Origin: Poseidonocella pacifica
GTDB taxonomy: Bacteria; Pseudomonadota; Alphaproteobacteria; Rhodobacterales; Rhodobacteraceae
Assembly: GCF_900111875.1 (NCBI RefSeq)
Contig: NZ_FOJU01000002.1
Location: forward strand, 620,001-684,000
Direction: 5' to 3'
Length of the DNA stretch: 64,000 nucleotides
In this document: one piece after another, positions 39,920 through 54,629 of the stretch
Numbering within the stretch: position 1 is the first letter of the stretch
Layout of the letters: every line of letters begins with the position of its first letter
Made by a program: the position numbers and the translations under genes
Notes under the pieces: model-generated
What the model was told of the DNA's origin: nothing
What the model saw: the letters and a program-made list of their open reading frames with translations, nothing else
Database searches by the model: none

Positions 39920-41269
39920 TCAGATACCCCAGGCGGCGCATTTCCGGTCGATGGTCTTGCGAGACACCCCTAGCCTGCGGGCCGCTTCGGCGCGGTTTCC
40001 ACCGCAAGCATCCAGAACCTGCAGGATATGGCGCTGTTCGACGAGTTCGAGCGTTTCGATGGCCTGCACCCCGCTCACCTCACCCTCGCCCGCAAATTCA
40101 GGCGGTAGCGCCCCCAACAACAGCGACCGTTCGATCATGTTGCGCAGTTCGCGCACGTTCCCGGGCCAACTGTAGCGGCTGAGCTTCAACAGAACGACAT
40201 CGTTCAACTCAAGTGGCGGCACGCCCAGTTCAGCCGAAAGTTGCGCCATGAAGTGACCGGCCAGTTCAACGATATCTTCGCGCCGATCCTGCAAGCGTGG
40301 CATCTCGATCTGCAGCACGTTGATCCGGTGAAAGAGGTCGGCCCGGAAGCTCCCCCCATCCACTTGTGCGGCGAGGTCAGCATTCGTGGCAAAGAGGAAC
40401 CGCAGATTGAGCGGAATTTCCCGCTCGGAACCGAGGGGACGGACACGCCGGTCTTCGAGCACCCGAAGGAGACTGGCCTGCAAGGCAAGCGGCATTTGCG
40501 CGATCTCGTCAAAAAAGAGCGTGCCGCCATCGGCATGGAGCAACAGACCTTCCTTACGCTGCACATCCTGATCGACCACACCAAAGAGATCCTGAGCAAT
40601 CCGTTCCGGCGCAAGCCCGGCGCAGTTTACCGCAACAAATGGCGCCCCTGCCCGATCGGACATCTGATGCAGCGAACGCGCGGCAACCTCTTTCCCGCTG
40701 CCAGTCTCCCCGGTGAACAGGACCGTGGTGGGCGCGTGCGCGGCCCTGGCCAGCGTGGAACGAACGGCGTCAATCTGCGGGGAATGCCCGAGCAGCCGAT
40801 TTCCCGCCCGCAGCGGCCCGCTCGAAAGCGCATGCCGCAAAAGCACATTCTCCCCCCGCAGGTATTTGCGGTCGAGAGCGCGGGCCGCAGCGTTCAGAAT
40901 CTGATTGGCGCGAAATGGCTTCAGCACGAAATCGGCCACGCCAGAGCGCACCGCCTGAATGGCGGTATCGAGGTCGGCGTAGGCTGTGATCAGGATCGCA
41001 TCGGCGAAAAGGCCAATCCGGCGCTGTTCGGCCATCCATTCAAGCCCCGTCATCCCCGGCATCACGTTATCGAGGATCACGAGATCGAAATGCGCACGAT
41101 CAAGCATCTCGCTGGCGGCTTGGGTCGACCCTGCCTGCTCGACGCGCTTGGCGCGTGGGCCAAGTGTTTTCACCAGAAAGTTGCGCATACCCGGCTCATC
41201 GTCGACCACAAGGATCGACGCGCGGGATAGAATATCACCGAGACCGTCCGCCCCGGGTGCATCACTCAC
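39920..41269 (-). CDS. NtrC-like response regulator lacking the GAFTGA sigma-54 loop
   Basis: A 449-aa regulator: receiver domain (about 15-130; phospho-acceptor Asp67 in VILDNVMPG, Lys117 in FVLKPF), AAA+ domain (about 155-390; Walker A TGETGSGKE, Walker B GGTLFFDEI, arginine-finger region FRADLFHRINV) and a Fis-type helix-turn-helix at the end (GNRAEAARRLGVSRKTIDRK). Between LFG (228-230) and GGT (248) the sequence is VVDQDVQRKEGLLLHAD, so the GAFTGA loop needed to contact sigma-54 is gone. It is the last gene of the fdh minus-strand run; its GTG start overlaps the small membrane peptide stop by 4 nt. It probably controls the fdh genes with another sigma factor or as a repressor. No partner kinase is in the window. 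Confidence 0.88.
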   Translation of the reverse strand: MSDAPGADGLGDILSRASILVVDDEPGMRNFLVKTLGPRAKRVEQAGSTQAASEMLDRAHFDLVILDNVMPGMTGLEWMAEQRRIGLFADAILITAYADLDTAIQAVRSGVADFVLKPFRANQILNAAARALDRKYLRGENVLLRHALSSGPLRAGNRLLGHSPQIDAVRSTLARAAHAPTTVLFTGETGSGKEVAARSLHQMSDRAGAPFVAVNCAGLAPERIAQDLFGVVDQDVQRKEGLLLHADGGTLFFDEIAQMPLALQASLLRVLEDRRVRPLGSEREIPLNLRFLFATNADLAAQVDGGSFRADLFHRINVLQIEMPRLQDRREDIVELAGHFMAQLSAELGVPPLELNDVVLLKLSRYSWPGNVRELRNMIERSLLLGALPPEFAGEGEVSGVQAIETLELVEQRHILQVLDACGGNRAEAARRLGVSRKTIDRKCAAWGI

Positions 41270-41406
41270 TGGGCGGCATCTCCGAGCCGAACCGCGCTGG
41301 AACTCATCGTGCGCTCAGGGCTGCTGAACCCTACGCCATTGAGCAGGAAACCAGCGCCCACGGCAATCAGTCCGACCATGACGGCGGCAAACAAAAAGGC
41401 TTTCAT
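41266..41406 (-). CDS. 46-aa single-pass membrane peptide in the fdh operon
   Basis: A short gene between the cytochrome c gene and the response regulator. The product starts MKAFLFAAVMVGLIAVGAGF, one hydrophobic helix (about 3-23), followed by a polar tail ending SAVRLGDAAQ. The ATG lies one base after the upstream stop (TGA-A-ATG) and the stop codon overlaps the regulator GTG by 4 nt, so it is locked into the operon on both sides. The helix could be an uncleaved anchor or a signal peptide. No family is recognised; a role in membrane assembly of the formate dehydrogenase or cytochrome is inference from context only. Confidence 0.7.
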   Translation of the reverse strand: MKAFLFAAVMVGLIAVGAGFLLNGVGFSSPERTMSSSAVRLGDAAQ

Positions 41407-41407
41407 T

Positions 41408-42694
41408 TCAATTCTCCTGCGGCGCAGTTGCTGTTTTCAGAAATTCGATCAAGTCGTCACGGTCCTTCTGCTCTGTGATACGCTGCATCGGCATCTTGGA
41501 CCCCGGGATATAGTGCTCCGGCCCGAGGTCGAAAAGCGCATCAATGGTCTCCGCTGTCCAGATGAGATCTCCCGCATCAAGCGTATCGGAATAGGGGTAA
41601 TCGGGGAGCGCCCCAGCAGGCCGCCCGAAGAGTTGGTAGAGTGATGGCCCAGCCCGGCGAGATGGGCCCGGTGAAAGATCGTGACAGACCGAACACTTCC
41701 GTTGAAACTGGCGCTCGCCATTTCCCATGGTTTCCGGCGCAAGCTGGAAACTGCGCGGGGCGGGATCGACCGGCTCATAGTTCTGCAAGCCATCCACCGG
41801 CCATGAATAGACGATATCCTCGATACCGCCCGCATAGAGCGTATCCCCGTCCGAAGAGAAGGACAGCGCCCAGATCGGCCCACGGAGCGTCGCGTGAAAA
41901 TCATGGACGATCCGCCAGAGCGCGGTATCAATAACCATGATGTACCCGTGCCCGTCCCCGACGGCGAGCAACGGCACGCTCGGGGACTGATCCATGGCGA
42001 GGATCGGCCGACGGTCAAACGAAAAATCCTTGAGGGGCGCCGCATCGGGCAGAGAGACCACGCGGGTCGCGCCATCCACGGCCCCAAAGGCGAGCCATTT
42101 ACCAGCCCGGTCCACGGCAAGCCGATTGATGCCAAAGCCATTGCCCAGAAGGACGCGCCCTTCGCCAGAAGCGATATCCCAAACACGGATCGTTCCATCC
42201 GCCGACGCGGATAGCAGCTCGCCCCGGGCGGAGAATGCCACGTCATTGACTGCTCCATCGTGCCCTTCGAGGAAACGTGGCGGCCCGCCCCCAACTGGCC
42301 AAAGCCCGATCGTACCATCCCAGCTCGCCGAGGCGATCAGGTCAGCTTTGGGGGAAAGCGCCAGAGAGGCGACCTTTCCCTTATGGCCCTCAAGCCGCTG
42401 GGGGCTATCCCCCCAGAGTATGATATCGAAGTCGTCGCCGCCCGATACGAGCCGACCATCGGGCAACCACAGCAGAGCGACCACGGCCGCATCATGCCCT
42501 TCGCGCCAAGCTGGTTCCGTTTCCGTCCATAGACCGATGGAATTGTCAAAGCTGGCGCTCGCCACCACATCGGTTCGGGGGTTCACGGCGATATCCATGA
42601 TGGGACCGCCGTGCCCCTTCAGCGTTGCAAAGCCTTCGGCCGCCGCCGCATAAGGCAGGACCGAAAGCACCAACCCAAAACCCGCGTTCCTCAT
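41408..42694 (-). CDS. WD40 beta-propeller / cytochrome c fusion protein
   Basis: A 428-aa periplasmic haem protein. A signal peptide (about 1-19) is followed by seven WD40-type repeats, one closed propeller: blades begin near residues 27, 66, 103, 144, 186, 228 and 270, four of them with GH and a closing W. The C-terminal cytochrome c domain (about 322-420) has the haem site CSVCH (Cys334, Cys337, His338) and the distal Met in PGSKMPM (Met401 or 403). Its ATG overlaps the fdhC stop by 4 nt, so it belongs to the formate dehydrogenase operon and may take electrons from, or dock onto, that enzyme. That electron-transfer role is inference. Confidence 0.87.
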   Translation of the reverse strand: MRNAGFGLVLSVLPYAAAAEGFATLKGHGGPIMDIAVNPRTDVVASASFDNSIGLWTETEPAWREGHDAAVVALLWLPDGRLVSGGDDFDIILWGDSPQRLEGHKGKVASLALSPKADLIASASWDGTIGLWPVGGGPPRFLEGHDGAVNDVAFSARGELLSASADGTIRVWDIASGEGRVLLGNGFGINRLAVDRAGKWLAFGAVDGATRVVSLPDAAPLKDFSFDRRPILAMDQSPSVPLLAVGDGHGYIMVIDTALWRIVHDFHATLRGPIWALSFSSDGDTLYAGGIEDIVYSWPVDGLQNYEPVDPAPRSFQLAPETMGNGERQFQRKCSVCHDLSPGPSRRAGPSLYQLFGRPAGALPDYPYSDTLDAGDLIWTAETIDALFDLGPEHYIPGSKMPMQRITEQKDRDDLIEFLKTATAPQEN

Positions 42695-43890
42695 TCCGCG
42701 GGGGTCGCACCTTTTGGCGGTGCCTTACCCTTTTCCTCCAACTCTTCGAGCCAGAGGCCGTGGTGTTCGCGCGCCCACTGTTCTTCGACCTCGCCGGAAC
42801 CCATCGCGTCGAAAGCACCCTCCATCCCGAGCGTTCCGATATAGATATGCGCGATGATGATCGCCATCAGGACGAAGGCAATGATCGCATGCCAAAGCTG
42901 CGAAAGCTGCATTTCCTGATGCGGTGCGAGCGCGGTCGGCAAGGCATCCATACCGAACCACCCCGGAGCCCCGATCGCATTAAGCTTGGAGAAGGTCGCC
43001 GCGAACATCGGAAGCTCAAACGGAAAGAGCAGCGCGAGCCCGGATACGGAAATGGAAGTGCCGAGGATAATGACGGACCAGAAGATGATCTTCTGCCCGA
43101 AGTTGAACTTCTTCGCTGGCGGATGCCCTTTTCCGACAAAACCGCCCCCTGCCTTGATCCACTTCAGATCGGTCTTGTTGGGGATGTTCTCACTGACCCA
43201 CAACACAAAGACAAAGATCAGCGCCACGATGAAGGCCCAGGACACATTGTTATGGATCCACTTGGACCCGATAGCGAGCGTCGAGAATGCCTCATGCCCG
43301 AAGAGAGGGATCAAGACCTTGCGCCCGAACAGCGTGATCAGCCCTGTGAACCCAAGCAGCAGGAAAGACCCCGCAAGAAGCCAGTGGGAGAAACGTTCAA
43401 AGGCCCGAAAGCGCGTGACAGTGCGACCTGTCTTTGGCCCATCGATACGAATGCGTCCCTTTACCAGGTAGAAAAGGGCGAGCAGGACGATCATCCCTCC
43501 AAGCAGCATCGCACCATAGTTGGCCAGTGGCCCTTCGCGGAAACGCAGCCAGCTCATGCCGCTGTCTTGGATCAAGACATCCGTCGCGGGACCGCGCGCC
43601 TGCGTGGTGATATCGAGCGCATTGAAGCGCATGCCGCGCCAAAGGTCCGCGTCCGATTGTCCGCCAAGCGGGCCAAGGCCCGGCGCATTCGCGCCTGCGG
43701 CAGGATCATCATTGCCAAACTCGCGGCGGTAGTCATCGTCGACCTCCAGCCCTTGCTGACGTCGGAGGATGTCTTCAAGGGTGGTCGCGCCGCCCGTGGC
43801 GCTGCGGTCGATGGGTGCGGGCTCCTCCTGAGCGGCAAGTGGCGCCGCCAGAAACAGGGCCAGAAGCCAGGCCAGCAGGATGCGGATCAT
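42691..43890 (-). CDS. fdhC: Formate dehydrogenase cytochrome b (gamma) subunit
   Basis: A 399-aa inner-membrane subunit. A cleavable-type N terminus (about 1-21) and a roughly 90-residue periplasmic segment precede a first helix (about 120-140), then the four-helix cytochrome b556 core with histidines in FERFSHWLLAG, KWIHNNVSW, and LWHAII...AHIYIGT that can bind two haems. It anchors the catalytic dimer and passes electrons to quinone in this family. GAGGAG precedes the ATG at 43890. The extra N-terminal helix region makes it longer than E. coli FdnI (217 aa) but is usual in proteobacterial fdh3-type operons. Confidence 0.92.
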   Translation of the reverse strand: MIRILLAWLLALFLAAPLAAQEEPAPIDRSATGGATTLEDILRRQQGLEVDDDYRREFGNDDPAAGANAPGLGPLGGQSDADLWRGMRFNALDITTQARGPATDVLIQDSGMSWLRFREGPLANYGAMLLGGMIVLLALFYLVKGRIRIDGPKTGRTVTRFRAFERFSHWLLAGSFLLLGFTGLITLFGRKVLIPLFGHEAFSTLAIGSKWIHNNVSWAFIVALIFVFVLWVSENIPNKTDLKWIKAGGGFVGKGHPPAKKFNFGQKIIFWSVIILGTSISVSGLALLFPFELPMFAATFSKLNAIGAPGWFGMDALPTALAPHQEMQLSQLWHAIIAFVLMAIIIAHIYIGTLGMEGAFDAMGSGEVEEQWAREHHGLWLEELEEKGKAPPKGATPAE

Positions 43891-43975
43891 CGCGGGACTC
43901 CTCGGAATCTCTGTCGTGAATTTTACTTGGTGGCGAGGCGGCCCGAAAGCCGCCTCGCGTGATCGACAAGAACGA

Positions 43976-44569
43976 TCAGCCGCCCTTTTGGTCGTAGGCC
44001 GTGCCCCAACCCCAAGCGCCCGAGCCGAAGCCACGTGCAACGACCCGCTCGCGGTAGATCGCAGAGACGACATCGCCGTCGCCGGCGAGAAGCGCCTTGG
44101 TGGAACACATCTCGGCGCAGATCGGCAGCTTGCCTTCCGCGATCCGGTTGCGCCCGTACTTGGAGAACTCCGCTTGCGAAGTGTTCTCCTCGGGGCCGCC
44201 GGCGCAGAAGGTGCATTTGTCCATCTTGCCGCGGGAGCCGAAGTTACCCGCTTGCGGATACTGCGGCGCACCGAAGGGGCATGCATAGAAGCAATATCCG
44301 CACCCGATGCAGAGGTCCTTGGAGTGCAACACCACACCGTCTTCGGTCTGATAGAAACAGTCCACCGGACATACCGCCATGCACGGTGCGTCGGAGCAGT
44401 GCATGCAGGCGACGGAAATCGACCGTTCGCCGGGCTTGCCATCTTCGATCGTCACCACCCGCCGGCGGTTGATGCCCCAAGGCACCTCATGCTCGTTCTT
44501 GCATGCCGTGACGCAGGCGTTGCACTCGATGCAGCGCTCAGCGTCGCAGAGAAATTTAGCTCGTGCCAT
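43976..44569 (-). CDS. fdhB: Formate dehydrogenase iron-sulfur (beta) subunit
   Basis: A 197-aa electron-transfer subunit with four cysteine clusters for [4Fe-4S] centres: CIECNACVTAC, CMHCSDAPCMAVCP, CIGCGYCFYACP, and CTFC...CAEMC. No signal peptide or membrane helix is present, so it is carried through the Tat pathway by the alpha subunit and connects FdhA to the cytochrome b subunit. It starts 14 nt after fdhA; fdhC follows after 85 nt. Confidence 0.94.
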   Translation of the reverse strand: MARAKFLCDAERCIECNACVTACKNEHEVPWGINRRRVVTIEDGKPGERSISVACMHCSDAPCMAVCPVDCFYQTEDGVVLHSKDLCIGCGYCFYACPFGAPQYPQAGNFGSRGKMDKCTFCAGGPEENTSQAEFSKYGRNRIAEGKLPICAEMCSTKALLAGDGDVVSAIYRERVVARGFGSGAWGWGTAYDQKGG

Positions 44570-44583
44570 ATCTCATATTCTCC

Positions 44584-47500
44584 TTACGCTGCCGAGATCT
44601 TGCAGAGAGTGGCCTTGGTCTCCTGCATCTGGGTCACCGAGTCATAGCCATAGGTCTGGGCGGTGTTGGTGGATTCACCAAGCACATAGGGATCGGCACC
44701 ATCGGGATACTTGCTCCTCTGGTCCTCACCCTGGAAATGACCGCCGAAGTGGAAGGGCATGAAGGCGACGCCCTCACCCACCCGTTCGGTCACCATCGCC
44801 ATGACCCGGACCTTGCCGCCTTCCGGGCCTTCGACCCAGACCATCGCCCCGTCCCGAACGCCAAGGTTGTTGGCATCGCGTGGGTTGATTTCGACGAACA
44901 TGTCCTGCTGCAGTTCGGCCAGCCAGGGGTTGGAGCGCGTCTCATCGCCCCCGCCCTCATATTCAACCAGACGGCCCGAGGTCAGGATGATCGGATAATC
45001 CTTCGAGAAATCCTGCTTCTGGATCGATGCGTACATCGTCGGCAGGCGATAGAATTTCCGGTCCTCATAGGTCGGATAATCCTCCACGAGATCGCGGCGG
45101 TTGGTATAGAGCGGCTCCCGGTGCGTCGGGATCGGATCCGGGAAGGTCCAGACCACGGCGCGGGCCTTTGCATTGCCATAGGGCGCGCAACCATGCTCGA
45201 TCGCGACCCGCTGGATGCCGCCGGACAGGTCGGTCTTCCAGTTTATCTTGGAAGCCCGCTCATTGTAGTCCGACGGGAAAGGCGACATCGACTGTTCGCC
45301 GACTTCCTCGTTGCTGGCCTGATCACCATTACCGTTGGAAACGCCGCCTTCGGAGCTCTGAAACTCCATTCCCGCGGCCCTGCCGATGACCCGCTTTTCC
45401 TCTTCTGTGAGATCGCCATCCCAGCCGAGGTCCACGAGCATCTGATAGGTGAACTCAGGATAACCGTCCGTCAGTTCGGCACCCGGATTGGAGACACCTT
45501 CGGCCAGCAGATTGTCTCCGTTACGCTCCACCCCGTAGCGGGCGCGGAACGGCAGACCGCCATCCTTGACCGGTACCGAGATGTCATAAAGGTTCGGTGA
45601 GCCCGGGTGGTTGATTTCGGGCGTGCCCCAGCATGGCCAGGGAAGCCCGTAGAAATCACCGTCGGCCGGACCACCGTTCGCACGGAGCGTGGTCTTGTCG
45701 AAGGTATGCTGATTTTCCATGTGCATCTTGAGACGCTCAGGCGATTGGCCCGTATATCCGACCGTCCACATGCCGCGGTTGATCTCGCGCAGCGTGTCCT
45801 CGATGTTCGGCGTGATCCCGTCATCCTCAATCGAGATGTTGCGGAAGATGCGATCATGAAAGCCAAATTTCTTGGAGAAGAGACCGATGATCTCATGGTC
45901 GGTCTTGGACTCGAAAAGCGGATCGAAAACCTTGGACCGCCATTGAATCGACCGGTTCGACGCGGTGACCGATCCATAGGTCTCGAACTGCGTGGCCGCC
46001 GGCAGGAGATAGACCCCGTCGGTGCGGTCATGCAGTACGGCGGAAACGGTGGGATACGGGTCGATCACGACCAGCATGTCCAGCATCTCCATGGCCTTCT
46101 TCATTTCGACCATACGCGTCTGGGAGTTGGGCGCATGCCCCCAAAGAACCATGGCCCGAAGGTTGTTCGGTTGATCCATGTTCTCCGGCTTCTCCAGCAC
46201 GCCGTCGATCCAGCGGCTCACCGGGATCCCCGTCAGGGTCATGAGCGACTTGTCTTTGCCGTCCTTGTCCTTGACCGTCGCGAACTGGCTCTTCAGCCAA
46301 TCGGGATCTTCTTCCCAGACGCGGGCCCAGTGGCCCCAAGCACCCGCCGTCAGGCCATAGTAGCCTGGCAATGTGTGCGAGAGCACGCCAAGGTCCGTCG
46401 CGCCCTGCACGTTGTCGTGGCCGCGGAAGATGTTGGTGCCGCCGCCCGAAGTGCCCATGTTGCCAAGGGCGAGTTGCAGGATGCAGTATGCGCGGGTGTT
46501 GTTGTTGCCGTTGGTGTGCTGCGTGCCGCCCATGCACCAGATGACGGTGCCGGGACGGTTATTGGCCATCTGCATGGCCACGCGCTTGAGTTGCTCACCC
46601 GGCGCGCCGGTGACACGCTCGACTTCCTCAGGTGTCCACTTGGCTACTTCTTCGCGGATCTGATCCATCCCCCAGACGCGGGTACGGATGAATTCCTTGT
46701 CTTCCCACCCGTTCTCAAAGATGTGCCACAGGATTCCCCAGACGAGGGCGACATCGGTGCCCGGACGGAATCGGACATATTCGTCGGCATGCGCAGCCGT
46801 CCGCGTGAAGCGGGGGTCGCAGACGATGAGCGGTGCATTGTTCTGCTCTTTCGCCTTCAGGACGTGCTGAAGTGAGACCGGATGCGCTTCGGCCGGGTTG
46901 CCGCCGATGATGAAGATCGCTCTGGAATTGTGAATGTCGTTGTAGGAGTTGGTCATGGCGCCGTAGCCCCATGTGTTGGCAACCCCGGCAACGGTGGTGG
47001 AGTGACAAATCCGTGCCTGATGGTCGACGTTGTTCGTCCCCCAATAGGCTGCGAATTTGCGGAACAGGTAGGCCTGCTCGTTGTTGTGCTTTGCCGATCC
47101 CAGCCAATAGACGCTGTCCGGGCCGCTCTCATCACGGATCGAGAGCATCTTGTCGCCGATCTCGTTGATCGCCTGCTCCCAGGACATGCGAACCCATTCC
47201 CCGGCGACTTTCTTCATCGGGTACTTCAGGCGACGTTCGCCATGGGCATGTTCGCGGACCGATGCGCCCTTGGCGCAGTGGGCACCAAGATTGAACGGGC
47301 TGTCCCAGCCGGGCTCCTGCCCGACCCAGACACCGTTGGAGACCTCGGCGATCACGGTGCAACCAACTGAACAGTGGGTGCAAACCGATTTGACCGTCTC
47401 AAGGGCGCCCTCCGCGGCGGTTGCCGCAGTGGCTTGCGTGACCGTTCCGCCGGTCGCGCTGATGGCGGCAAGGCCACCAATGGCCAGGCCAGAGCCACGC

Positions 47501-47598
47501 AGGAACGCGCGGCGGTCTACCGATGTTTCGGAGACTTCGTTGAGGATACTTGTCCGCTGGGAGCGTCGCGCAACCCCGTTGGTCTTTTTCCTGAGCAT
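44584..47598 (-). CDS. fdhA: Formate dehydrogenase catalytic (alpha) subunit, molybdopterin enzyme
   Basis: A 1004-aa molybdenum/tungsten bis-MGD enzyme oxidising formate to CO2 on the periplasmic side. The Tat signal is DRRAFLRG (29-36) followed by a hydrophobic stretch. One [4Fe-4S] is bound by Cys73, Cys76, Cys80 and Cys108. The metal ligand is Cys198 in QARICHST, so this is the cysteine and not the selenocysteine form, with the active-site His199 beside it. The rest shows bis-MGD contacts (IIGGNPAEAHP, VCDPRFTRTAAHAD, MGGTQHTNGNNNTR) and the C-terminal cofactor domain. GGGAGG precedes the ATG. It is in line with fdhB and fdhC. Confidence 0.96.
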   Translation of the reverse strand: MLRKKTNGVARRSQRTSILNEVSETSVDRRAFLRGSGLAIGGLAAISATGGTVTQATAATAAEGALETVKSVCTHCSVGCTVIAEVSNGVWVGQEPGWDSPFNLGAHCAKGASVREHAHGERRLKYPMKKVAGEWVRMSWEQAINEIGDKMLSIRDESGPDSVYWLGSAKHNNEQAYLFRKFAAYWGTNNVDHQARICHSTTVAGVANTWGYGAMTNSYNDIHNSRAIFIIGGNPAEAHPVSLQHVLKAKEQNNAPLIVCDPRFTRTAAHADEYVRFRPGTDVALVWGILWHIFENGWEDKEFIRTRVWGMDQIREEVAKWTPEEVERVTGAPGEQLKRVAMQMANNRPGTVIWCMGGTQHTNGNNNTRAYCILQLALGNMGTSGGGTNIFRGHDNVQGATDLGVLSHTLPGYYGLTAGAWGHWARVWEEDPDWLKSQFATVKDKDGKDKSLMTLTGIPVSRWIDGVLEKPENMDQPNNLRAMVLWGHAPNSQTRMVEMKKAMEMLDMLVVIDPYPTVSAVLHDRTDGVYLLPAATQFETYGSVTASNRSIQWRSKVFDPLFESKTDHEIIGLFSKKFGFHDRIFRNISIEDDGITPNIEDTLREINRGMWTVGYTGQSPERLKMHMENQHTFDKTTLRANGGPADGDFYGLPWPCWGTPEINHPGSPNLYDISVPVKDGGLPFRARYGVERNGDNLLAEGVSNPGAELTDGYPEFTYQMLVDLGWDGDLTEEEKRVIGRAAGMEFQSSEGGVSNGNGDQASNEEVGEQSMSPFPSDYNERASKINWKTDLSGGIQRVAIEHGCAPYGNAKARAVVWTFPDPIPTHREPLYTNRRDLVEDYPTYEDRKFYRLPTMYASIQKQDFSKDYPIILTSGRLVEYEGGGDETRSNPWLAELQQDMFVEINPRDANNLGVRDGAMVWVEGPEGGKVRVMAMVTERVGEGVAFMPFHFGGHFQGEDQRSKYPDGADPYVLGESTNTAQTYGYDSVTQMQETKATLCKISAA

Positions 47599-47721
47599 TT
47601 TCAGAACCTCCCTTGCTTGCTCGGCCTCTTGCGATGGGCCTCACTCGCTTGGTGACGACGAAGGCATCGGCGGTCGGGCGTCACGCAACCAGTTGCCGGA
47701 TACCGGGGAATTAGCGTCCGA

Positions 47722-47913
47722 TCAGAATCGGGCGCTCTCGAGATACGCGCGGGTGTGCGCGGTGTCCTGCATCTTGGTGGATGTCAGGTCTGGCTCCGCG
47801 GCCTCGGCCTTGGTGCCCGAAAGCATCGCGGCGGCAGCTGCAACAGGTGCAGCCGATGCGCCGAGCTTCAGAAAATCGCGACGGCTGCTGCCATCTTCGG
47901 TTTTCTTTGTCAT
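47722..47913 (-). CDS. Formate dehydrogenase region Tat-target peptide, 63 aa
   Basis: A small protein with a twin-arginine signal SRRDFLKLG (10-18) and a hydrophobic alanine-rich core, leaving a mature tail of only about 25 residues. Such peptides are a known small family that occurs next to fdh operons. It sits between torD and fdhA. GGAGGGA precedes the ATG. It might assist export or assembly of the Tat-dependent dehydrogenase; no biochemical role is established that I know of. Confidence 0.85.
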   Translation of the reverse strand: MTKKTEDGSSRRDFLKLGASAAPVAAAAAMLSGTKAEAAEPDLTSTKMQDTAHTRAYLESARF

Positions 47914-47983
47914 GAAGGTTTCCCTCCTCTGGCTGTGGCGGCATGGCCGCCGGCTTTGACGGGCACGCCCGCCGATGTGCGGA

Positions 47984-48592
47984 TCACTCCGCGGTCAGTC
48001 GAAACCCCTCGGACTCGATCTCCATGAAGACACGGCCAACCTGGCCTACCGCCGCATAGAGGACCGAGTTCTTGGCGGCCTCCAGATCCGAAAAGAAATG
48101 TCCCGCCCAAGGAGAGACATGTTTGTTAAAGAATTGTTTCTGTTCGCCAATTGACGCAGGGGAACCGAAACGCCCCACGATCAGCCCGGCCATCATCTCC
48201 ACCAGAGAAGCGATGTTGTCCTCGGGCTCATAGACGTTCTGGGCGCGGGTGATCCCCTTGGCCGCCATATCGCGGCGCAGGGCGGCGAGCGGTTTCTCAT
48301 TGAGAAACCCCGTCAGGTAGTAACTCGCATACGGCAAAAGCTCACCGCGTCCGAGACCGATGAAGAGCGCATTGAATTCGCTGCGCACCGCGCGGGGCTT
48401 GGTGACCTTGGCGACTCGGGAAAGTCCGCCGATGGCTTCGCCCAAAGGCGTTTCATCGCCCGACAAACCGGCACATTGCTGCAACACCGTCTGATCTGGC
48501 GGCCCGGAGAGAAGCAATCCAAGGAAATTATACAGATCCGCCCTGAGGCGGTCCTCCTCCGACACTGTCTGGCTCGCGGCATGCTGGCTCAT
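47984..48592 (-). CDS. TorD-family molybdoenzyme chaperone
   Basis: A 202-aa all-helical chaperone of the TorD/DmsD type. Visible family features are LRADLYNFLGLLLSGPP near the N terminus, the conserved E-x2-x-L-F-I-G of RSEFNALFIGLG, LLPYASYYLTGFLNEKPLA, and EPEDNIASLVEMMAGLI. It should bind the FdhA Tat signal and hold the protein until the cofactor is inserted. GGAG lies upstream of the ATG. It lies between DUF3306 and the small Tat peptide in the same direction. Confidence 0.9.
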   Translation of the reverse strand: MSQHAASQTVSEEDRLRADLYNFLGLLLSGPPDQTVLQQCAGLSGDETPLGEAIGGLSRVAKVTKPRAVRSEFNALFIGLGRGELLPYASYYLTGFLNEKPLAALRRDMAAKGITRAQNVYEPEDNIASLVEMMAGLIVGRFGSPASIGEQKQFFNKHVSPWAGHFFSDLEAAKNSVLYAAVGQVGRVFMEIESEGFRLTAE

Positions 48593-48603
48593 TTAGGCTC
48601 CTG

Positions 48604-49191
48604 TCAGGTGTCTTCGAATGTGAAACGCATGGATCGACGCGGCAGGTCGAGCGGCGCAGGCTCTTCCGTCTCGTCGGAGGCGGCAAGCGCGATGCTTGCG
48701 TTTTCAGGGTTTGGATCGGAGGCTTCGGAAGAGGCGTCAGCCACATCTTCCGCCAGATCATCCTCCTCCGGCTCAGCTTTGGAGTCGGGCTCTGCGAACA
48801 TTTCCCGGAATTGAGAGGCCATGCCCTTGCCGACTTCATACGCCGTCTGGAGGTTTTCGATCACGGTCGCGCTGTCCGTATAATCCTCGCCATACTCCAC
48901 AAGACCATCAACGTTGGCGAGAACCGGATTCGATCGCCACAGCGCACGAAGAGCCCGCCGACGCAGGCGCTCGGGAACCGTTTCCGTCATGAAACGCTGC
49001 AATTCATCCTTGGTGGCCACCGCATCGGGATCTGGCAGATCAAGCTCCGCCAACAACTCCTCATCCGTACGCTCGGCCAGCTCCTCATCGCGTTTGATCC
49101 GCGCAAGTTCACGCTCCTGCTCGCGGACTTCGGCTTCCTCGGCCTCGACACGCGCCTTGCGGCGGGACCAGAAATCGCCACGGACGCTCAA
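48604..49191 (-). CDS. DUF3306 domain-containing protein
   Basis: A 195-aa hydrophilic protein. The N-terminal two thirds match DUF3306: FWSRRKARVEAEE, a charged coiled-coil-like stretch (about 15-50), then LPDPDAV, RLRRRALRALWRSNPVLANVDGLVEYGEDYTD. The last 60 residues are acidic and low-complexity, ending RSMRFTFEDT. The family is confined to fdh gene neighbourhoods with DUF3305; function unknown. It overlaps DUF3305 by 4 nt. Confidence 0.85.
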   Translation of the reverse strand: MSVRGDFWSRRKARVEAEEAEVREQERELARIKRDEELAERTDEELLAELDLPDPDAVATKDELQRFMTETVPERLRRRALRALWRSNPVLANVDGLVEYGEDYTDSATVIENLQTAYEVGKGMASQFREMFAEPDSKAEPEEDDLAEDVADASSEASDPNPENASIALAASDETEEPAPLDLPRRSMRFTFEDT

Positions 49192-49763
49192 TTCACACGC
49201 TCCTTGCGACCTTGCTTCAGCGAAGAGGGAGAGCGGTATACATCGGTGGATTGTGCGATACGCGGATCACCGATGCCGTCCTCTTGTGCGGAAATATCCT
49301 TCACATCACGACGGCGCTTCTTGAACGCCTCATGAGTGTGGTGTTCCGCCACGAACCGCTCCACCCACGCAATAAGGGCGGAGGGCATAGGCACCTTCTC
49401 GACAAGTTCCTCGCCACTGTCGGTGTAATCCTGCGCCTCATAGGGGGACGCGGTCACCAACAGAACCTCCAGCGGCTCGGGGCCGCCTGTTTCACGCAGG
49501 ATGATGTAAACCGACGGCGCGCCGGTGCGTAGGTTTTCAAGATACGCTTCGGTATCGCCCCGAAACAGTTCGAGGTCGCGGGTCGCGGCATGAAACTCAG
49601 TGACGCCATCCTGCTCACGCATGACCTTCCAGTCGGCGGACGCCGCCCCGGGGAGTACCGCAACAGCCTGCCACGCCCACTTCGCCCACCGGGTCACACC
49701 CGGGGCGCGCCTGACGACAACACCCAGACGCATGGCCTGATATATACCGACTGTTTCGGTCAT
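49188..49763 (-). CDS. DUF3305 domain-containing protein
   Basis: A 191-aa protein with the DUF3305 pattern: LGVVVRRAPGVTRWAKWAWQAVAVLPGA, YIILRE, VLLVTASPYEAQDYTDSGEELVEKVPMP and AWVERFVAEHH. GGGAGG three bases before the ATG at 49763 sets the start. It is the first gene of the minus-strand fdh run and is coupled to DUF3306. The pair recurs beside formate dehydrogenase genes; a role in enzyme assembly is inferred. Confidence 0.85.
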   Translation of the reverse strand: MTETVGIYQAMRLGVVVRRAPGVTRWAKWAWQAVAVLPGAASADWKVMREQDGVTEFHAATRDLELFRGDTEAYLENLRTGAPSVYIILRETGGPEPLEVLLVTASPYEAQDYTDSGEELVEKVPMPSALIAWVERFVAEHHTHEAFKKRRRDVKDISAQEDGIGDPRIAQSTDVYRSPSSLKQGRKERVN

Positions 49764-50109
49764 TTCCCTCCCGATGCGCTGTACCGCGCCCTTTTGCATA
49801 CCGTGGTATAGAAACGCCTCCGTTCAAAGCGGAATTTCGCCCATGGCCGACACCTTGGACAAAATGACCGCCCACGCGTGACCTTGGTCCGCCCGCCGGA
49901 CGATTTGACCGTATCGCAGTTTGGTTCTGGCGGCTGGGGGTCAACTCGGGGCAACTTGGTCAGCGAATCGGGCGAATCTTCAGGTTCGCCGCGACCAGAA
50001 TCGCGCCTTGGCGAAGCTATTTGCAGCGGCGCGCCAACAGGACTAGCTTGCAGCTTGGACCGACGCATCGCCATCTTGGCGACGGTTCAGCCGCCACAAA
50101 GGGAACGCC
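49764..50109. promoter_or_regulatory. Divergent promoter region of the formate dehydrogenase island
   Basis: This 346-bp gap separates the two divergent fdh transcription units and contains no convincing gene. It holds the palindromic element ATACC-GT-GGTAT (49798-49809), 35 nt upstream of DUF3305, and an inverted repeat TCGCCA-TCT-TGGCGA (50068-50082), 28 nt before the polyferredoxin gene. Either could bind a regulator; the NtrC-like protein of the operon is an obvious candidate. No clear -35/-10 pair stands out. Confidence 0.45.
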
Positions 50110-52065
50110 ATGTCCAAGCAATTGATTTTGTGCAACTGTCTCGGCACTCAGACGCTCGATGCAGAGGCGCTAGAGACGGCAACCGGCCTGCCCTGTTCGA
50201 AGGTTCATGACAACCTTTGCATGGGTCAGATGGGCGTAGCGGCAGAGGCAATGCAAAACGAAGACGCCGTGATCTGCTGTCAGCAGGAGCGCCGCCGATT
50301 CGAAGAACTCGCCGATGACCTCGGACTAGAGCATCCAGCCTTTCTCGACCTGCGGGATCGGGCAGGTTGGTCCGCAGATATGGCCGCGAAACTTCCCAAA
50401 ATGTCCGCGCTCGTCGCAGAAGCCAAGCTGCCATCGCCTCAGGTAAAGTCGCTAGATATCGCATCCGAAGGGCTTTGCCTTATCTTCGGAGAGGACGAGG
50501 CGGCACTTTCGCTGGCGCGCCAGATCGCGGGACAACTCAACGTGACGGTTTTGCTTTCCGACCCAGAGAGCCTGCCGCTGGACCGCGGATTCGATGTCGT
50601 GGTCGGGCGACTGCGCCGGGTCGAGGGGGCACTGGGCGGCTTCTCACTCACCATCGATGCGCTCCGCGAGTTGATCCCCGGCGGACGCGGTCCCTTCGGC
50701 CTCACCGAGCCGAAAGACGGTGGAAAATCCGCCTGCGATATTCTCATCGACCTGAGTCGCGACGCCCCCATGGTTTCCGCCCCGCAAAAGCGGGAGGGGT
50801 ATTTGCGCGCCGATCCGCACAGCCCCAGAGCGGTGATGGACGTCGCGCTCGAAGCGGTACAACTTGTCGGCACCTTCGAGAAACCGCTCTACGTAAAACT
50901 GGAGCCACACCTTTGCGCCCACTCCCGCGCGAACCAGCCGGCCTGTTCCAATTGCCTCGACATCTGCCCCACCGGCGCGATCACCTCGGCGGGCGAACAT
51001 GTGGCCGTCGATCCGATGATCTGCGCAGGCTGCGGGTCCTGCTCCGCCGTCTGCCCCTCCGGCGCGATCAGTTATGACGCGCCCCCCGTTTCGGAAACCT
51101 TCCGCCGGATGCAGGTCATGAGCGAGGCCTACCGCGGCGCGGGCGGCAAAGCTCCCCGGCTTCTGATCGTCGATGAGGCGCATGGACTGGAGATGATCCG
51201 CCTTGCCGCACGCTTTGGGCGGGGCCTGCCTGCGGATGTGATCCCACTGGAAATCGAGGCTCTTGCCGGGTTTGGACACGCCGAAATGCTCGGGGCGCTC
51301 GGATGCGGCTTTGCCTCGGTCGACGTTCTATTGAACCCGCGCACCGAACGCGACGCACCGGACAGAGAACTTGCACTTGCCGAAGCGATCGCCGGGCCGG
51401 GCAAGCTTCGGCTGCTGGACCTGACGGATCCTGACGCGCTTTCCGAAATCCTCTTTGCGAGTGAAGTTCCCGGGGCGGTCGACACGCCGATGCTTCCCTT
51501 GGGAACCCGCCGCCAGATCGCGCGTCTGGCCGCAAGGACGCTACGCCCCGAAGACAGCAAGATCGACCTGCCGGAGAATGCCCCCTATGGCGCGGTGCTA
51601 GTCGACCAGGATGCCTGCACGCTTTGCCTGTCCTGCGTCTCGCTCTGCCCGTCCGGGGCGCTTGGGGACAATCCCGACAAACCTCAACTCCTGTTTCAGG
51701 AAGACGCCTGCCTCCAGTGCGGTCTTTGTGAGAATGCCTGTCCGGAGGATGCTATCACGCTGCAACCGCGTATGGACCTCACCGACGAAGCTCTCTCGCA
51801 ACGCGTGTTGAACGAGGAAGAGCCGTTCGCCTGCATCGAATGCGGCGCGCTCTTTGGTGTGAAGTCCACAATCGAACGGATCACCGAACGACTGGCCGGC
51901 AAGCATTCGATGTTTGCCACGTCCGACGCGGCAAAGACGATCCAGATGTGCGACGATTGCCGGGTCCGGGCACAGTTCCGCGCCACGGACAATCCGTTTG
52001 CGGGCGGCGAACGGCCACGTCCCCGCACCTCGGATGACTATTTCTCACGCCGCCGGGACCACTGA
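50110..52065 (+). CDS. Polyferredoxin-like 4Fe-4S protein of the fdh island
   Basis: A 651-aa cytoplasmic protein. The N-terminal region (1-70) has its own cysteines (CNC at 8-10, then single Cys and a CC pair). Ferredoxin motifs follow: a variant site ACSNCLDICP with an earlier Cys, a regular CAGCGSCSAVCP (about residues 310-321), and in the C-terminal half CTLCLSCVSLCP and CLQCGLCENACP. The segment between them (about 345-440) looks like a small alpha/beta domain. The tail has two CxxC pairs (CIEC, CDDC), possibly a zinc site. With Mrp downstream it may store or relay iron-sulfur clusters or electrons for formate dehydrogenase; that role is inferred. AAAGGGA precedes the ATG. Confidence 0.85.
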   Translation: MSKQLILCNCLGTQTLDAEALETATGLPCSKVHDNLCMGQMGVAAEAMQNEDAVICCQQERRRFEELADDLGLEHPAFLDLRDRAGWSADMAAKLPKMSALVAEAKLPSPQVKSLDIASEGLCLIFGEDEAALSLARQIAGQLNVTVLLSDPESLPLDRGFDVVVGRLRRVEGALGGFSLTIDALRELIPGGRGPFGLTEPKDGGKSACDILIDLSRDAPMVSAPQKREGYLRADPHSPRAVMDVALEAVQLVGTFEKPLYVKLEPHLCAHSRANQPACSNCLDICPTGAITSAGEHVAVDPMICAGCGSCSAVCPSGAISYDAPPVSETFRRMQVMSEAYRGAGGKAPRLLIVDEAHGLEMIRLAARFGRGLPADVIPLEIEALAGFGHAEMLGALGCGFASVDVLLNPRTERDAPDRELALAEAIAGPGKLRLLDLTDPDALSEILFASEVPGAVDTPMLPLGTRRQIARLAARTLRPEDSKIDLPENAPYGAVLVDQDACTLCLSCVSLCPSGALGDNPDKPQLLFQEDACLQCGLCENACPEDAITLQPRMDLTDEALSQRVLNEEEPFACIECGALFGVKSTIERITERLAGKHSMFATSDAAKTIQMCDDCRVRAQFRATDNPFAGGERPRPRTSDDYFSRRRDH

Positions 52066-52167
52066 TCCGGACCCGTTTGATAAGCGGGCGGGAAATACTC
52101 ATATTGCACCACGAAACACGCGGCGATCCGCCGCCCGCCCCATGGGGCCAAAGGAAGGGAGATCAGG

Positions 52168-52362
52168 ATGAGCGACGATTTCAACATGTCGATGCGTAAA
52201 TTCCTCAAGCAGGTCGGGGTTACGTCCCAGCAGCAGATCGAGGAAGCCATTCGCGCCAAGGGTAACACCGAAGGGCAAAGCTTTGAGGCGAAGGTCGTGC
52301 TGACCATCGACGGGCTTGATCTCGAACACACCGTGACCGGCACGATCAAAGGACAGGGCTGA
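52168..52362 (+). CDS. Small DUF6494-like protein
   Basis: A 64-aa protein, MSDDFNMSMRKFLKQVGVTSQ at the start and a beta-rich second half (FEAKVVLTIDGLDLEHTVTGTIKG). I believe it belongs to the DUF6494 family seen beside mrp/fdh genes. No metal-binding residues are present (no Cys or cluster of His). AAGGAAGGGAG precedes the ATG; the Mrp gene begins one base after the stop. Function unknown. Confidence 0.75.
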   Translation: MSDDFNMSMRKFLKQVGVTSQQQIEEAIRAKGNTEGQSFEAKVVLTIDGLDLEHTVTGTIKGQG

Positions 52363-52363
52363 C

Positions 52364-53434
52364 GTGGCATTGACACGCGAAGATGTACTGGGCGCGCTCA
52401 AGGGGATCACAGATCCGGTGAGCGGCTCCGATATTGTGAGCACCGGAATGGTGCGGGCACTCGCCGTCGAAGAGAGCGGTGCCGTTCGCTTCGTTCTTGA
52501 AATTGATCCCAAGCGCGCCGAACAGATGGAGCCGGTACGCGCCGAGGCCGAGGCAAAGGTAAAAGCGTTGGCGGGCGTGGGGGCCGTCTCGGTCGTGATG
52601 ACCGCGCATAGCACGCAAAATGCCCCCCCTGACCTGAAGCCCAAGAAGAAAGCTGAGCCTACCGGCCCGCAAAAGATCGCCGGGATCGAACACATTATTG
52701 CGGTCGCATCCGGCAAGGGTGGCGTGGGCAAATCGACCGTCTCGGCAAACCTCGCCTGCGCGCTCGCCGCCGAAGGCAAGCGGGTCGGCCTGCTCGACGC
52801 AGATGTCTACGGGCCTTCACAGCCACGGATGCTCGGCGTATCGGGCCGCCCGGCAAGCCCGGACGGCAAGACCATCATGCCGCTCAGGAACCATGGCGTG
52901 ACCATGATGTCGCTTGGCCTCATGGTCAACGAAGGTCAGGCGGTTGTCTGGCGCGGTCCGATGCTCATCGGCGCGCTCCAGCAGATGCTGATGCAGGTTC
53001 AATGGGGCGCGCTCGACGTGCTCATCGTGGATCTGCCGCCCGGCACCGGCGATGTCGGCATGACGCTGGCGCAAAAGGCACATATCGACGGCGTGGTTGT
53101 TGTCTCGACCCCGCAGGACGTCGCGCTGATCGACGCCCGCAAAGGGATCGACATGTTCAACCAGCTCAAGACACCCATCTTGGGCATGATCGAGAACATG
53201 AGCACCCACATCTGCTCCAACTGTGGTCATGAAGAGCATATCTTCGGTCATGGTGGCGTAGCGCGCGAAGCGGAAAAGATCGGGGCGCCACTGCTCGGGG
53301 AAATCCCGCTGCACCTCGACATCCGGACCGCGGCCGACGGCGGCGCACCCATCGTTGTGGCCAAGCCTGAAAGCCCGCAAGCGCAGTCGTTCCGGGAGAT
53401 CGCACGCAAACTGATGGAGATGGGCGTTACATGA
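52364..53434 (+). CDS. Mrp/ApbC (NBP35-type) iron-sulfur cluster carrier ATPase
   Basis: A 356-aa P-loop ATPase. An N-terminal MIP18/DUF59-like domain (about 1-85, LGALKGITDPVSGSDIVSTGMV) precedes the deviant Walker A ASGKGGVGKST (about 115-125), switch DADVYGPSQPRMLG, and DLPPGTGDVGMTLAQ. The cluster-binding Cys pair is ICSNC near residue 285. Such proteins bind and transfer [4Fe-4S] clusters. It starts with GTG one base after the DUF6494-like gene and overlaps DUF4444 by 4 nt, so here it is probably dedicated to the fdh enzymes. Confidence 0.92.
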   Translation: MALTREDVLGALKGITDPVSGSDIVSTGMVRALAVEESGAVRFVLEIDPKRAEQMEPVRAEAEAKVKALAGVGAVSVVMTAHSTQNAPPDLKPKKKAEPTGPQKIAGIEHIIAVASGKGGVGKSTVSANLACALAAEGKRVGLLDADVYGPSQPRMLGVSGRPASPDGKTIMPLRNHGVTMMSLGLMVNEGQAVVWRGPMLIGALQQMLMQVQWGALDVLIVDLPPGTGDVGMTLAQKAHIDGVVVVSTPQDVALIDARKGIDMFNQLKTPILGMIENMSTHICSNCGHEEHIFGHGGVAREAEKIGAPLLGEIPLHLDIRTAADGGAPIVVAKPESPQAQSFREIARKLMEMGVT

Positions 53435-54147
53435 TCGACGCCGCACCGCAGTTCCCACCGTTGTTCCAGGGCCTCGCCGTGGAGCCGGGCATCGACCCCT
53501 TCGCCAAGGCCTGCGCCAAGGGCGCGATGGGCTGCGACGCGGGGCTCGTGGTGCATCGTCTCGCGGCGGACCGGATGTCTGCCGCAGTCGTGCTTGCGCC
53601 CGAGGTTCCGCTCGAAGAGGCCGTGGCGATGCTCCCGCTCTCGGGGGTCGCCTTTCAGAACGCGCTGGGCGCACTTGCCCCGCCGGAGGTCGCGGTTCAT
53701 CTCGAATGGACGGGCGGCATCCGGGTCAACGGGGCGCGTTGCGGTGATCTGCGGATCGCGGCGGGAACAGGCGATCCAGACGCGCAACCGGAATGGCTGG
53801 TTGTCGGACTGGACCTGCCGCTTTGGCCCGAGGATCTCGACCGCACGGGCGATACGCCGGATCAAACAGCGCTTTATGCCGAAGGCTGTGCCGATGTGGA
53901 CGCAATCGCCCTACTGGAAAGTTGGGTTCGGCATCTGCTGCTCTGGATTTCCCGGTGGGAGGAAGCGGGCGCAAAGCCGATCCACGCGGAGTGGCGGGGA
54001 CTGGCCCACGGTATGGGTGAGGATATGTCCATCGATGGGCGTTCGGGCACCTTTCTGGGGGTGGACGAAAGATTTGGACTGCTACTTCGGGATGCGGAGA
54101 CAACGCATCTCATCCCGCTGAGCACTAGGTTGGAGACGATGACATGA
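53431..54147 (+). CDS. Biotin/lipoate ligase-like protein (DUF4444)
   Basis: A 238-aa protein of the lipoate/biotin protein ligase superfamily. PPLFQGLAVEPGIDPFAKACAKG, HLEWTGGIRVNGARCGDLRIAAG, and WLVVGLDLPLW correspond to the ligase fold, though the usual GRGRxGR/GGG catalytic loop is not evident; a C-terminal SH3-like part (GRSGTFLGVDERFGLLL) follows. This fits DUF4444 proteins. It overlaps both neighbours by 4 nt. Role unknown; ligase activity is doubtful. Confidence 0.78.
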   Translation: MIDAAPQFPPLFQGLAVEPGIDPFAKACAKGAMGCDAGLVVHRLAADRMSAAVVLAPEVPLEEAVAMLPLSGVAFQNALGALAPPEVAVHLEWTGGIRVNGARCGDLRIAAGTGDPDAQPEWLVVGLDLPLWPEDLDRTGDTPDQTALYAEGCADVDAIALLESWVRHLLLWISRWEEAGAKPIHAEWRGLAHGMGEDMSIDGRSGTFLGVDERFGLLLRDAETTHLIPLSTRLETMT

Positions 54148-54629
54148 AGCTCGCACGGGCGATCCACTTCGATGAAAGCGACCAGCGCGTCTTTCATTCG
54201 CCGGCCCGCACCGGGGAATGGTGCATCACCGGGGGTTTTGAGTTTTCCAACTGGGGAGAGGCGGACCTTGTCGGCAAGGCACGGCAGGCATTTTCCAACA
54301 GTTGGCTTGGAATGGAGACATGGGGCCGCGTGACTTTCGTCGCCGTGACCCAGATCGAGGCCGCTGAATATGCGCGGCTCGAAGAGCTTCTGACCCTCCA
54401 CTTCATGGAGATGTACGGCGCCCCGGACCGAGAGGCGGCGCGGCCCGTGGCACAGGAAGAATTGGCCTATATGGTCGAACTTTGTGAGGATCATCAGCCC
54501 AATACGCTGTTGACCGTCGCGCGGGAGTTGACCGAAACAGGTGTGCGCGAAAGCTTTCGGGCGATTGAGCCTTCCGAGGCCGGGCTGGAGCAATTCGCCA
54601 TTCACGGTGATCTCGACGACCCCGCGTGA
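54144..54629 (+). CDS. DUF6505-like protein of the fdh island
   Basis: A 161-aa soluble protein beginning MKLARAIHFDESDQRVFHSPA, with GEWCITGGFEFSNW and an acidic helical C-terminal half. I associate it with the DUF6505 family that accompanies fdh accessory genes, with moderate certainty. No catalytic motif is evident. It is the last gene of the plus-strand run and overlaps DUF4444 by 4 nt. Confidence 0.75.
   Translation: MKLARAIHFDESDQRVFHSPARTGEWCITGGFEFSNWGEADLVGKARQAFSNSWLGMETWGRVTFVAVTQIEAAEYARLEELLTLHFMEMYGAPDREAARPVAQEELAYMVELCEDHQPNTLLTVARELTETGVRESFRAIEPSEAGLEQFAIHGDLDDPA

Follow-up and report, generated by a model that had tools for sequence, protein, structure and literature searches.

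A formate dehydrogenase locus of Poseidonocella pacifica with a near-constant one-helix microprotein and an optional WD40–cytochrome c partner

What do a WD40–cytochrome c fusion, a 46-aa peptide and a response regulator contribute to the formate dehydrogenase (FDH) whose three subunit genes they directly follow? The question is raised by a 64,000-nt stretch of the genome of Poseidonocella pacifica (assembly GCF_900111875.1, contig NZ_FOJU01000002.1, positions 620,001 to 684,000), here called the window, in whose own coordinates positions are given. An earlier note on this DNA had compared the enzyme with FDH-N/FDH-O and had offered three roles for the fusion: an additional electron outlet, a docking platform, or a sensor of electron flow tied to the regulator. 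Our analysis indicates that the peptide (PEP) is the constant part and the fusion (WDc, for WD40 propeller and cytochrome c) the optional part of FDH3 loci. With modest confidence we favour an FDH3 that carries a near-constant one-helix PEP and, optionally, a docked WDc acting as a cytochrome c outlet beside quinone. The genes concerned, ending with the response regulator (RR), were as follows:

44584..47598, minus strand: fdhA, Mo/W-bis-MGD catalytic subunit (PF04879, PF00384, PF01568)
43976..44569, minus strand: fdhB (fdh3B), 4Fe-4S subunit with no transmembrane anchor (NF038355, FDH3_beta)
42691..43890, minus strand: fdhC, cytochrome b subunit (TIGR01583; hydropathy)
41408..42694, minus strand: WDc, WD40 propeller and cytochrome c (PF00400, PF00034)
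41266..41406, minus strand: PEP, 46-aa single-helix microprotein, helix 4–22 (40-sequence alignment, profile)
39920..41269, minus strand: RR, response regulator of NtrC architecture (PF00072, PF00158, PF02954)

The three joints downstream of fdhC were borne out from the sequence: fdhC (end 42691) and WDc (start 42694) overlap by 4 nt, WDc (end 41408) and PEP (start 41406) are separated by 1 nt, and PEP (end 41266) and RR (GTG start, 41269) again overlap by 4 nt. The order from fdhA to the regulator also stood as previously described; the closely packed minus-strand run (49799→39920) opens earlier, with genes for DUF3305, DUF3306, TorD and a Tat peptide.

FdhB scored 345.2 bits against the NCBIfam model FDH3_beta (NF038355, cut-off 240) and FdhC 147.8 bits against the gamma-subunit model TIGR01583 (cut-off 115.85), while FdhB reached only 56.7 bits against the FDH-N/FDH-O beta model TIGR01582 (cut-off 334.7). 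The best model for FdhA, TIGR01591, stayed under its cut-off (476.9 vs. 666 bits). Solved structures close to the subunits of the enzyme were limited to chains matching FdhA (9vap_A, 1394 bits) and FdhB (9vap_B); FdhC matched FDH-N only. By the FdhB and FdhC scores and the 9vap matches the enzyme is of FDH3 type, and FDH-N/FDH-O was therefore the wrong comparison. A twin-arginine motif, DRRAFLRG, was read by eye in FdhA. Hydropathy analysis revealed no hydrophobic segment in FdhB, and in FdhC a signal-peptide-like start, an N-terminal region, an extra helix (125–143) and four b561 helices. In the alignment with 1kqf_C all four haem-ligand histidines of FdhC were conserved. Both these histidines and the Asn/Gly aligned to what we take to be the quinone-site residues of FDH-N were kept in FdhC with and without WDc, wherever the alignment has a letter.

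We analyzed the distribution of WDc in a family sample of 198 genomes and a class sample of 289. In the family sample, full-length WDc (E 1.1e-45 or better; weaker matches were almost all one-domain) was found in 69/198 genomes and FDH3_beta in 97/198. FDH3 was present in 69/69 genomes with WDc, 28 genomes had FDH3 without WDc, and 101 had neither (Fisher p 8e-31, a guide only, the genomes being related). In the class sample, FDH3_beta was found in 39/289 genomes and a WDc profile match at E 1e-30 in 43. All 25 genomes with a match of at least 300 bits had FDH3_beta (hand count); the 18 weaker matches, mostly one domain or pieces, were divided between 8 FDH3 genomes, split cases among them, and 10 others.

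Gene context was read in 60 family regions, comprising 59 of the 68 non-window WDc genomes and one weak match (L085; numbers of this kind are our handles); nine further family WDc genomes lie outside this set. The fusion shared its region with fdhC in 56/59 cases: in 50 the WDc frame started at most 150 nt from where fdhC stops, both on one strand, conservation that excludes chance, and in 6 it lay 1.3–1.9 kb away. For the three genomes in which no fdhC was near WDc, fdhABC-PEP was located in a different region (L302, L303, L304); in the case of L082 the homologue was distant (~30% identity). In two further genomes the region read around fdhAB contains no fdhC, and a cassette of fdhC-WDc-PEP lies elsewhere (L306 with L042, L305 with L076). 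WDc was inverted relative to fdhC in three loci. Five relatives (L204–L208) encode the halves of WDc as separate neighbouring genes: in L204, L205, L207 and L208 a WD40 gene follows fdhC, with a separate cytochrome c gene and PEP converging from the opposite strand, and in L206 separate WD, CYT and PEP genes lie on a contig without fdh. Between fdhC and WDc, a Mrp/ApbC-like P-loop gene (named by eye) was noted in L081 and L083, an insert of like size was found in L084, and a CCG Fe-S protein with a cytochrome b in L046, L052 and L065. Components that occur fused or separate, inverted or relocated, but remain with a single enzyme, are most readily understood as a single functional module. WDc as a dedicated FDH3 partner is thus supported; the fusion did not occur mostly away from fdh genes, and the earlier proposal of an FDH partner held.

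The PEP profile, built from 40 family WDc-containing loci that match it by construction, was run at fixed database size (≥15 bits) on 198 fdhC loci. These are not independent: they comprise 57 window and family loci, 79 named ones (some from the same genomes), 24 from the class sample and 38 WDc-less or second-locus regions. PEP was found in 182/198: in 149/155 fused, 4/4 split, 2/2 WD-only and 27/37 WDc-less loci. Among the 149 fused loci it followed WDc in 143, fdhC in 2 and neither in 4; in split loci it stood behind the cytochrome gene (4/4), and in every one of the 27 WDc-less loci with PEP it came directly after fdhC. For instance, Sulfitobacter sp. D7 has the order fdhC, 41-aa ‘hypothetical protein’, RR. 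Over 171 genes the product is 40–59 aa long, mostly 41–45; it has one hydrophobic helix, and its consensus is MKAMxxAFxAIAVIxVGAxxxLxxxGFSSAExxSGxxVRLD (40-sequence alignment). pN was below pS in 19/19 disjoint gene pairs (median ratio 0.217), and over all 43 pairs pN/pS was 0.222 in frame vs. 1.4 and 2.0 out of frame; PEP is under purifying selection.

No Pfam or NCBIfam family covers PEP, and there was no match to it among solved structures; assignment to a known small protein was rejected, the Pfam/NCBIfam matches being weak and scattered, each in 1–2 of the 40 members. In the annotated records read, PEP was labelled ‘hypothetical protein’, as was its cousin in a second FDH lineage (L272, L300, L301, L307). 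There a short helix peptide directly follows fdhC, scoring 15–17 bits with the PEP profile in L272, L300 and L301 and falling below recognition in L307. We failed to find in the literature, covered in part as titles and abstract openings only, a description of a WD40 cytochrome like WDc or of a small FDH membrane subunit like PEP.

In seven loci (L046, L052, L065, L284, L285, L292, L293) a divergent fdhC is followed by genes for a cytochrome b, nitrate reductase gamma-like but just under the Pfam cut-off, and a CCG/4Fe-4S protein; no further instance of this pair turned up in the fetched loci searched. PEP was absent from all seven and WDc was present in three. PEP therefore goes with ordinary FdhC, and the seven loci possibly encode a formate-linked DsrMK/HdrD-like complex.

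In WDc, four PF00400 stretches (E 1.5e-40) were followed by PF00034. An AlphaFold2 model (pLDDT 92.8, pTM 0.89) had 28 strands, sufficient for the seven four-stranded blades of a WD40 propeller, and then cytochrome c helices; its best solved structural match was the WD40 domain of PkwA (5yzv, TM 0.91 by target length). The haem site is CSVCH (residues 334–338). C334, C337, H338 and M401 were invariant in 55 sequences, as expected of a class I cytochrome c, with Met401 the predicted haem ligand, and the cytochrome domain was the most conserved segment (mean 0.76). A signal-peptide-like start with no further hydrophobic segment indicates that WDc should be periplasmic, whereas RR should be cytoplasmic.

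The state of WDc, scored per locus, was followed on a FastTree of 112 FdhA sequences whose root was not inferred; for L302–L306 the genome has WDc, or a distant homologue, at another place. The ‘fused’ state changed 20 times, at least 14 of the changes being forced by well-supported branches. Fused or split states prevailed on the deeper alphaproteobacterial branches, a pattern suggestive of repeated WDc loss. That WDc is dedicated to the enzyme and carries an exported class I cytochrome c is compatible with an extra electron outlet or a docking platform. Because WDc is optional and the haem and quinone residues of FdhC are intact either way, an additional outlet is favoured over a replacement of the quinone route or an essential factor.

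Replacement would make FDH3 a formate:cytochrome c oxidoreductase only, in keeping with the fusion of cytochrome c to a domain of docking type and with the term cytochrome-linked given to the FDH3 of Methylobacterium (aquaticum 22A) in the excerpt seen of PMC5784242. The haem histidines and quinone-site-aligned Asn/Gly are, however, kept in FdhC encoded beside WDc; WDc as the sole electron route was rejected on the intact quinone-site residues, and we regard the replacement as improbable. WDc could instead serve assembly or quality control of FDH3, the propeller being a chaperone platform and the haem a redox or maturation helper, with no electron carried. The six family loci with other genes between fdhC and WDc (Mrp-like P-loop; CCG Fe-S and cytochrome b) would agree with this, as would the further maturation genes in the same run. 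Against it, WDc was repeatedly lost while fdhABC stayed, so assembly is possible without it, and it is the cytochrome domain that is best conserved, with CxxCH and Met invariant; a role in assembly thus appears unlikely to us.

For PEP, covariation was compared with 40 null draws, phylogeny not being removed. The top-20 mean z was 4.91 with FdhA (null 4.28 ± 0.17, maximum 4.74) and 5.09 with FdhC (null 4.81 ± 0.17, maximum 5.10); values for FdhB and WDc were within the null. An added small helix is plausible because the membrane arm differs from that of FDH-N, FdhB having no helix and FdhC an extra one, and we infer that PEP is a physical subunit of FDH3. It might otherwise act on FDH3 transiently, as a peptide for regulation or assembly, or be an element of translational coupling, and no stable subunit, as its absence from the seven CCG/cytochrome b loci and a few others and its shifting position among fdhC, WDc and CYT would allow. 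PEP is, however, retained when WDc is lost, and selection acts at the protein level and in frame only, which disfavours pure coupling; we judge these non-subunit roles together to be rather unlikely.

In the mechanism that we prefer, an FDH3 with PEP and an optional WDc outlet, the enzyme would be Tat-exported and membrane-bound. FdhA would convert formate to CO2 at Mo/W, FdhB would serve as the 4Fe-4S wire, and FdhC, a di-haem cytochrome b, would reduce quinone. PEP would lie in the membrane, most likely with its N-terminus inside and the conserved VRLD tail periplasmic, packing against FdhC and helping to keep FdhAB, which lacks an anchor of its own, at the membrane arm, a part comparable to that of CydX in cytochrome bd. 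The propeller would be the docking part of the exported optional partner, and the class I cytochrome c would release electrons from FDH3 one at a time into the periplasmic cytochrome c or oxidase pool, beside quinone. RR would form a control layer of its own, its input probably coming from a cache-domain kinase whose gene lies elsewhere.

Several observations weigh against this scheme. WDc is absent from 28/97 FDH3 genomes of the family sample and was found in 0/20 FDH3 genomes of other classes; it is thus not needed for catalysis. PEP is not universal, since it is missing from 16/198 fdhC loci (≤5.7 bits, which is background; one of them, L240, is a fragment of L212) and was near fdhB in only 3/20 FDH3 genomes of other classes. 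These three belong to one genus, in which PEP lies ~1.3 kb after fdhB, leaving room for one fdhC. One of the ten class-sample genomes with a weaker WDc match outside the FDH3 set (G424, ~80% complete) has fdhC, WDc and PEP in L212 and no FDH3_beta match. Only FdhA, not FdhC, exceeded all 40 null draws in covariation with PEP. Finally, a high haem potential of WDc is predicted from the Met ligand only, and WDc could, as set out above, serve assembly instead of electron transfer.

FDH3 nevertheless probably has more working parts than described. In its fullest form—a four-subunit FDH3, with PEP in the majority of the Alphaproteobacteria sampled and in one genus or more outside that class, and WDc a lineage-switchable module feeding cytochrome c directly and bypassing quinone and bc1—the proposal is tentative, and we would sooner doubt than accept it. 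Formate dehydrogenases of this kind are sought as CO2/formate catalysts. Should PEP prove to be part of the enzyme, preparations that lack it could be unstable or uncoupled, and it ought to be co-expressed in heterologous hosts. Should WDc serve as a cytochrome c outlet, an alternative electron exit has been gained or lost many times on one respiratory enzyme, which amounts to a natural test of wiring to quinone as against cytochrome.

RR combines a receiver, an AAA+ domain and a Fis helix–turn–helix (HTH), the architecture of NtrC. GAFTGA is the loop motif of sigma-54 activators; GA[FYW][TAS]GA was found in 0/60 RR homologues (>450 bits, fetched fdhC loci, window included), in spite of the annotation of RR-type genes as sigma-54 dependent in the records read. 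RR may not act through sigma-54. GAFAGA is carried by a Variovorax sp. RA8 relative that is 48.6% identical to RR over 442 positions. A sigma-54 promoter upstream of the run was considered and rejected: the window had 104 matches (≤3 mismatches) vs. 105.8 expected, with none in 49800–50109. No −24/−12 site was present within 300 nt upstream of the run, the nearest upstream pattern being at 50131–50146 with 3 mismatches.

A WDc that senses electron flow and signals to the co-transcribed RR would agree with the closeness of the two genes in the window. RR follows WDc-containing loci in 12/55 cases (window included) and WDc-less loci in 15/31, counting per locus those of the family with 1.5 kb or more of downstream sequence, a few of the WDc-less ones being from genomes with WDc elsewhere. 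RR is thus commoner without WDc, opposite to a tie between the two, and the proteins should be in different compartments. The Variovorax relative lies beside a cache-HAMP-HisKA-HATPase kinase, and an unlinked homologue of the first 406 residues of that kinase (45%, residues 10–404) is encoded in the window's genome (G000:C6:74845-75990; open frame 789 aa), where it is the best match; we infer that it pairs with RR. The sensor is accordingly highly improbable, and of the earlier interpretation the dedicated partner remains, while the link to the regulator is not supported.

The remaining genes of the run, and a divergent accessory cluster beside it (50110..54629, plus strand), were the following:

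49188..49799, minus strand: DUF3305 protein, first gene of the run (PF11749, E 7e-47)
48604..49191, minus strand: DUF3306 protein, 4-nt overlap with the DUF3305 gene (PF11748, E 1e-17)
47984..48592, minus strand: TorD-family molybdoenzyme chaperone (PF02613, E 6e-30)
47722..47913, minus strand: 63-aa Tat-signal peptide protein (TIGR02811, E 8e-7, below cut-off, 29 vs. 48 bits)
50110–52065, plus strand: polyferredoxin
52364–53434, plus strand: Mrp/NUBPL-type P-loop protein
53431–54147, plus strand: BPL/LplA-like ligase
54144–54629, plus strand: DUF6505

TIGR02811 is the model named ‘formate dehydrogenase region TAT target’. A DUF3305 gene was near fdhC in 165/219 fetched fdhC loci, short loci counted. 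According to PMC4464133, DUF3305/DUF3306 are found upstream of fdh operons, with chaperones of the TorD family; the excerpt of that paper contains no mention of WD40. A set comparable to the divergent cluster (4Fe-4S protein, ligase, DUF6505) was observed near the FDH3 of S. meliloti.

The genome also encodes a second FDH (L272, G000:C4:80000-99900), with fdhA-fdhB-fdhC and a gene for a 56-aa helix peptide that shares 4 nt with fdhC; WDc was not present in that region. Downstream of WDc/PEP, an HTH with substrate-binding-like protein (TTRELADLLRIGERKVYDL) or an ABC permease similar to those of tungstate transport was often found (L042, L044, L046, L065, L076 and others), and substrate-binding/ABC sets occur near FDH3 also in Sagittula, Alloyangia and S. 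meliloti. These neighbouring transport-like genes are hints of possible tungsten use.

Among known systems, E. coli FDH-N/FDH-O (FdnGHI) shares the three-subunit plan of molybdo, Fe-S and di-haem b proteins, and the window's FdhC aligns to 1kqf_C, haem histidines included. The window's enzyme differs in its FdhB, which has no transmembrane segment where FdnH presumably has one, a C-terminal membrane helix, and in the signal-peptide-like start, N-terminal region and extra helix of FdhC; to our knowledge, neither WDc nor PEP is part of FDH-N. Closer is the FDH3 of Methylobacterium/Methylorubrum (fdh3ABC), the window's FdhB being above the FDH3_beta equivalog cut-off. No account of PEP or of a WD40–cytochrome c partner was found for it, and in M. 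bullatum fdhC is followed by a weak PEP (22 bits), with no WDc in the 16.6 kb examined. PEP resembles CydX and CioY of cytochrome bd-type oxidases, one-helix small proteins encoded directly after large respiratory subunits, and a small oxidase subunit was discovered beside its operon, according to the portion of PMC11955535 consulted. The enzyme is a different one, and no sequence match to PEP was found. NapE and TorE, which we take to be small membrane proteins of periplasmic molybdoenzyme operons, would be a further likeness; NapE was not among the 11 Pfam families matched by the 40 PEP members at E ≤ 1. For WDc a parallel is arsenite oxidase, Aio, which presumably has a Rieske cluster in the place of FdhB and neither a propeller fusion nor a cytochrome b. 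In NT-26 this related molybdoenzyme passes its electrons to cytochrome c552, as stated in the part seen of PMC5574378, and is thus an enzyme of the DMSO-reductase family that feeds a c-type cytochrome.

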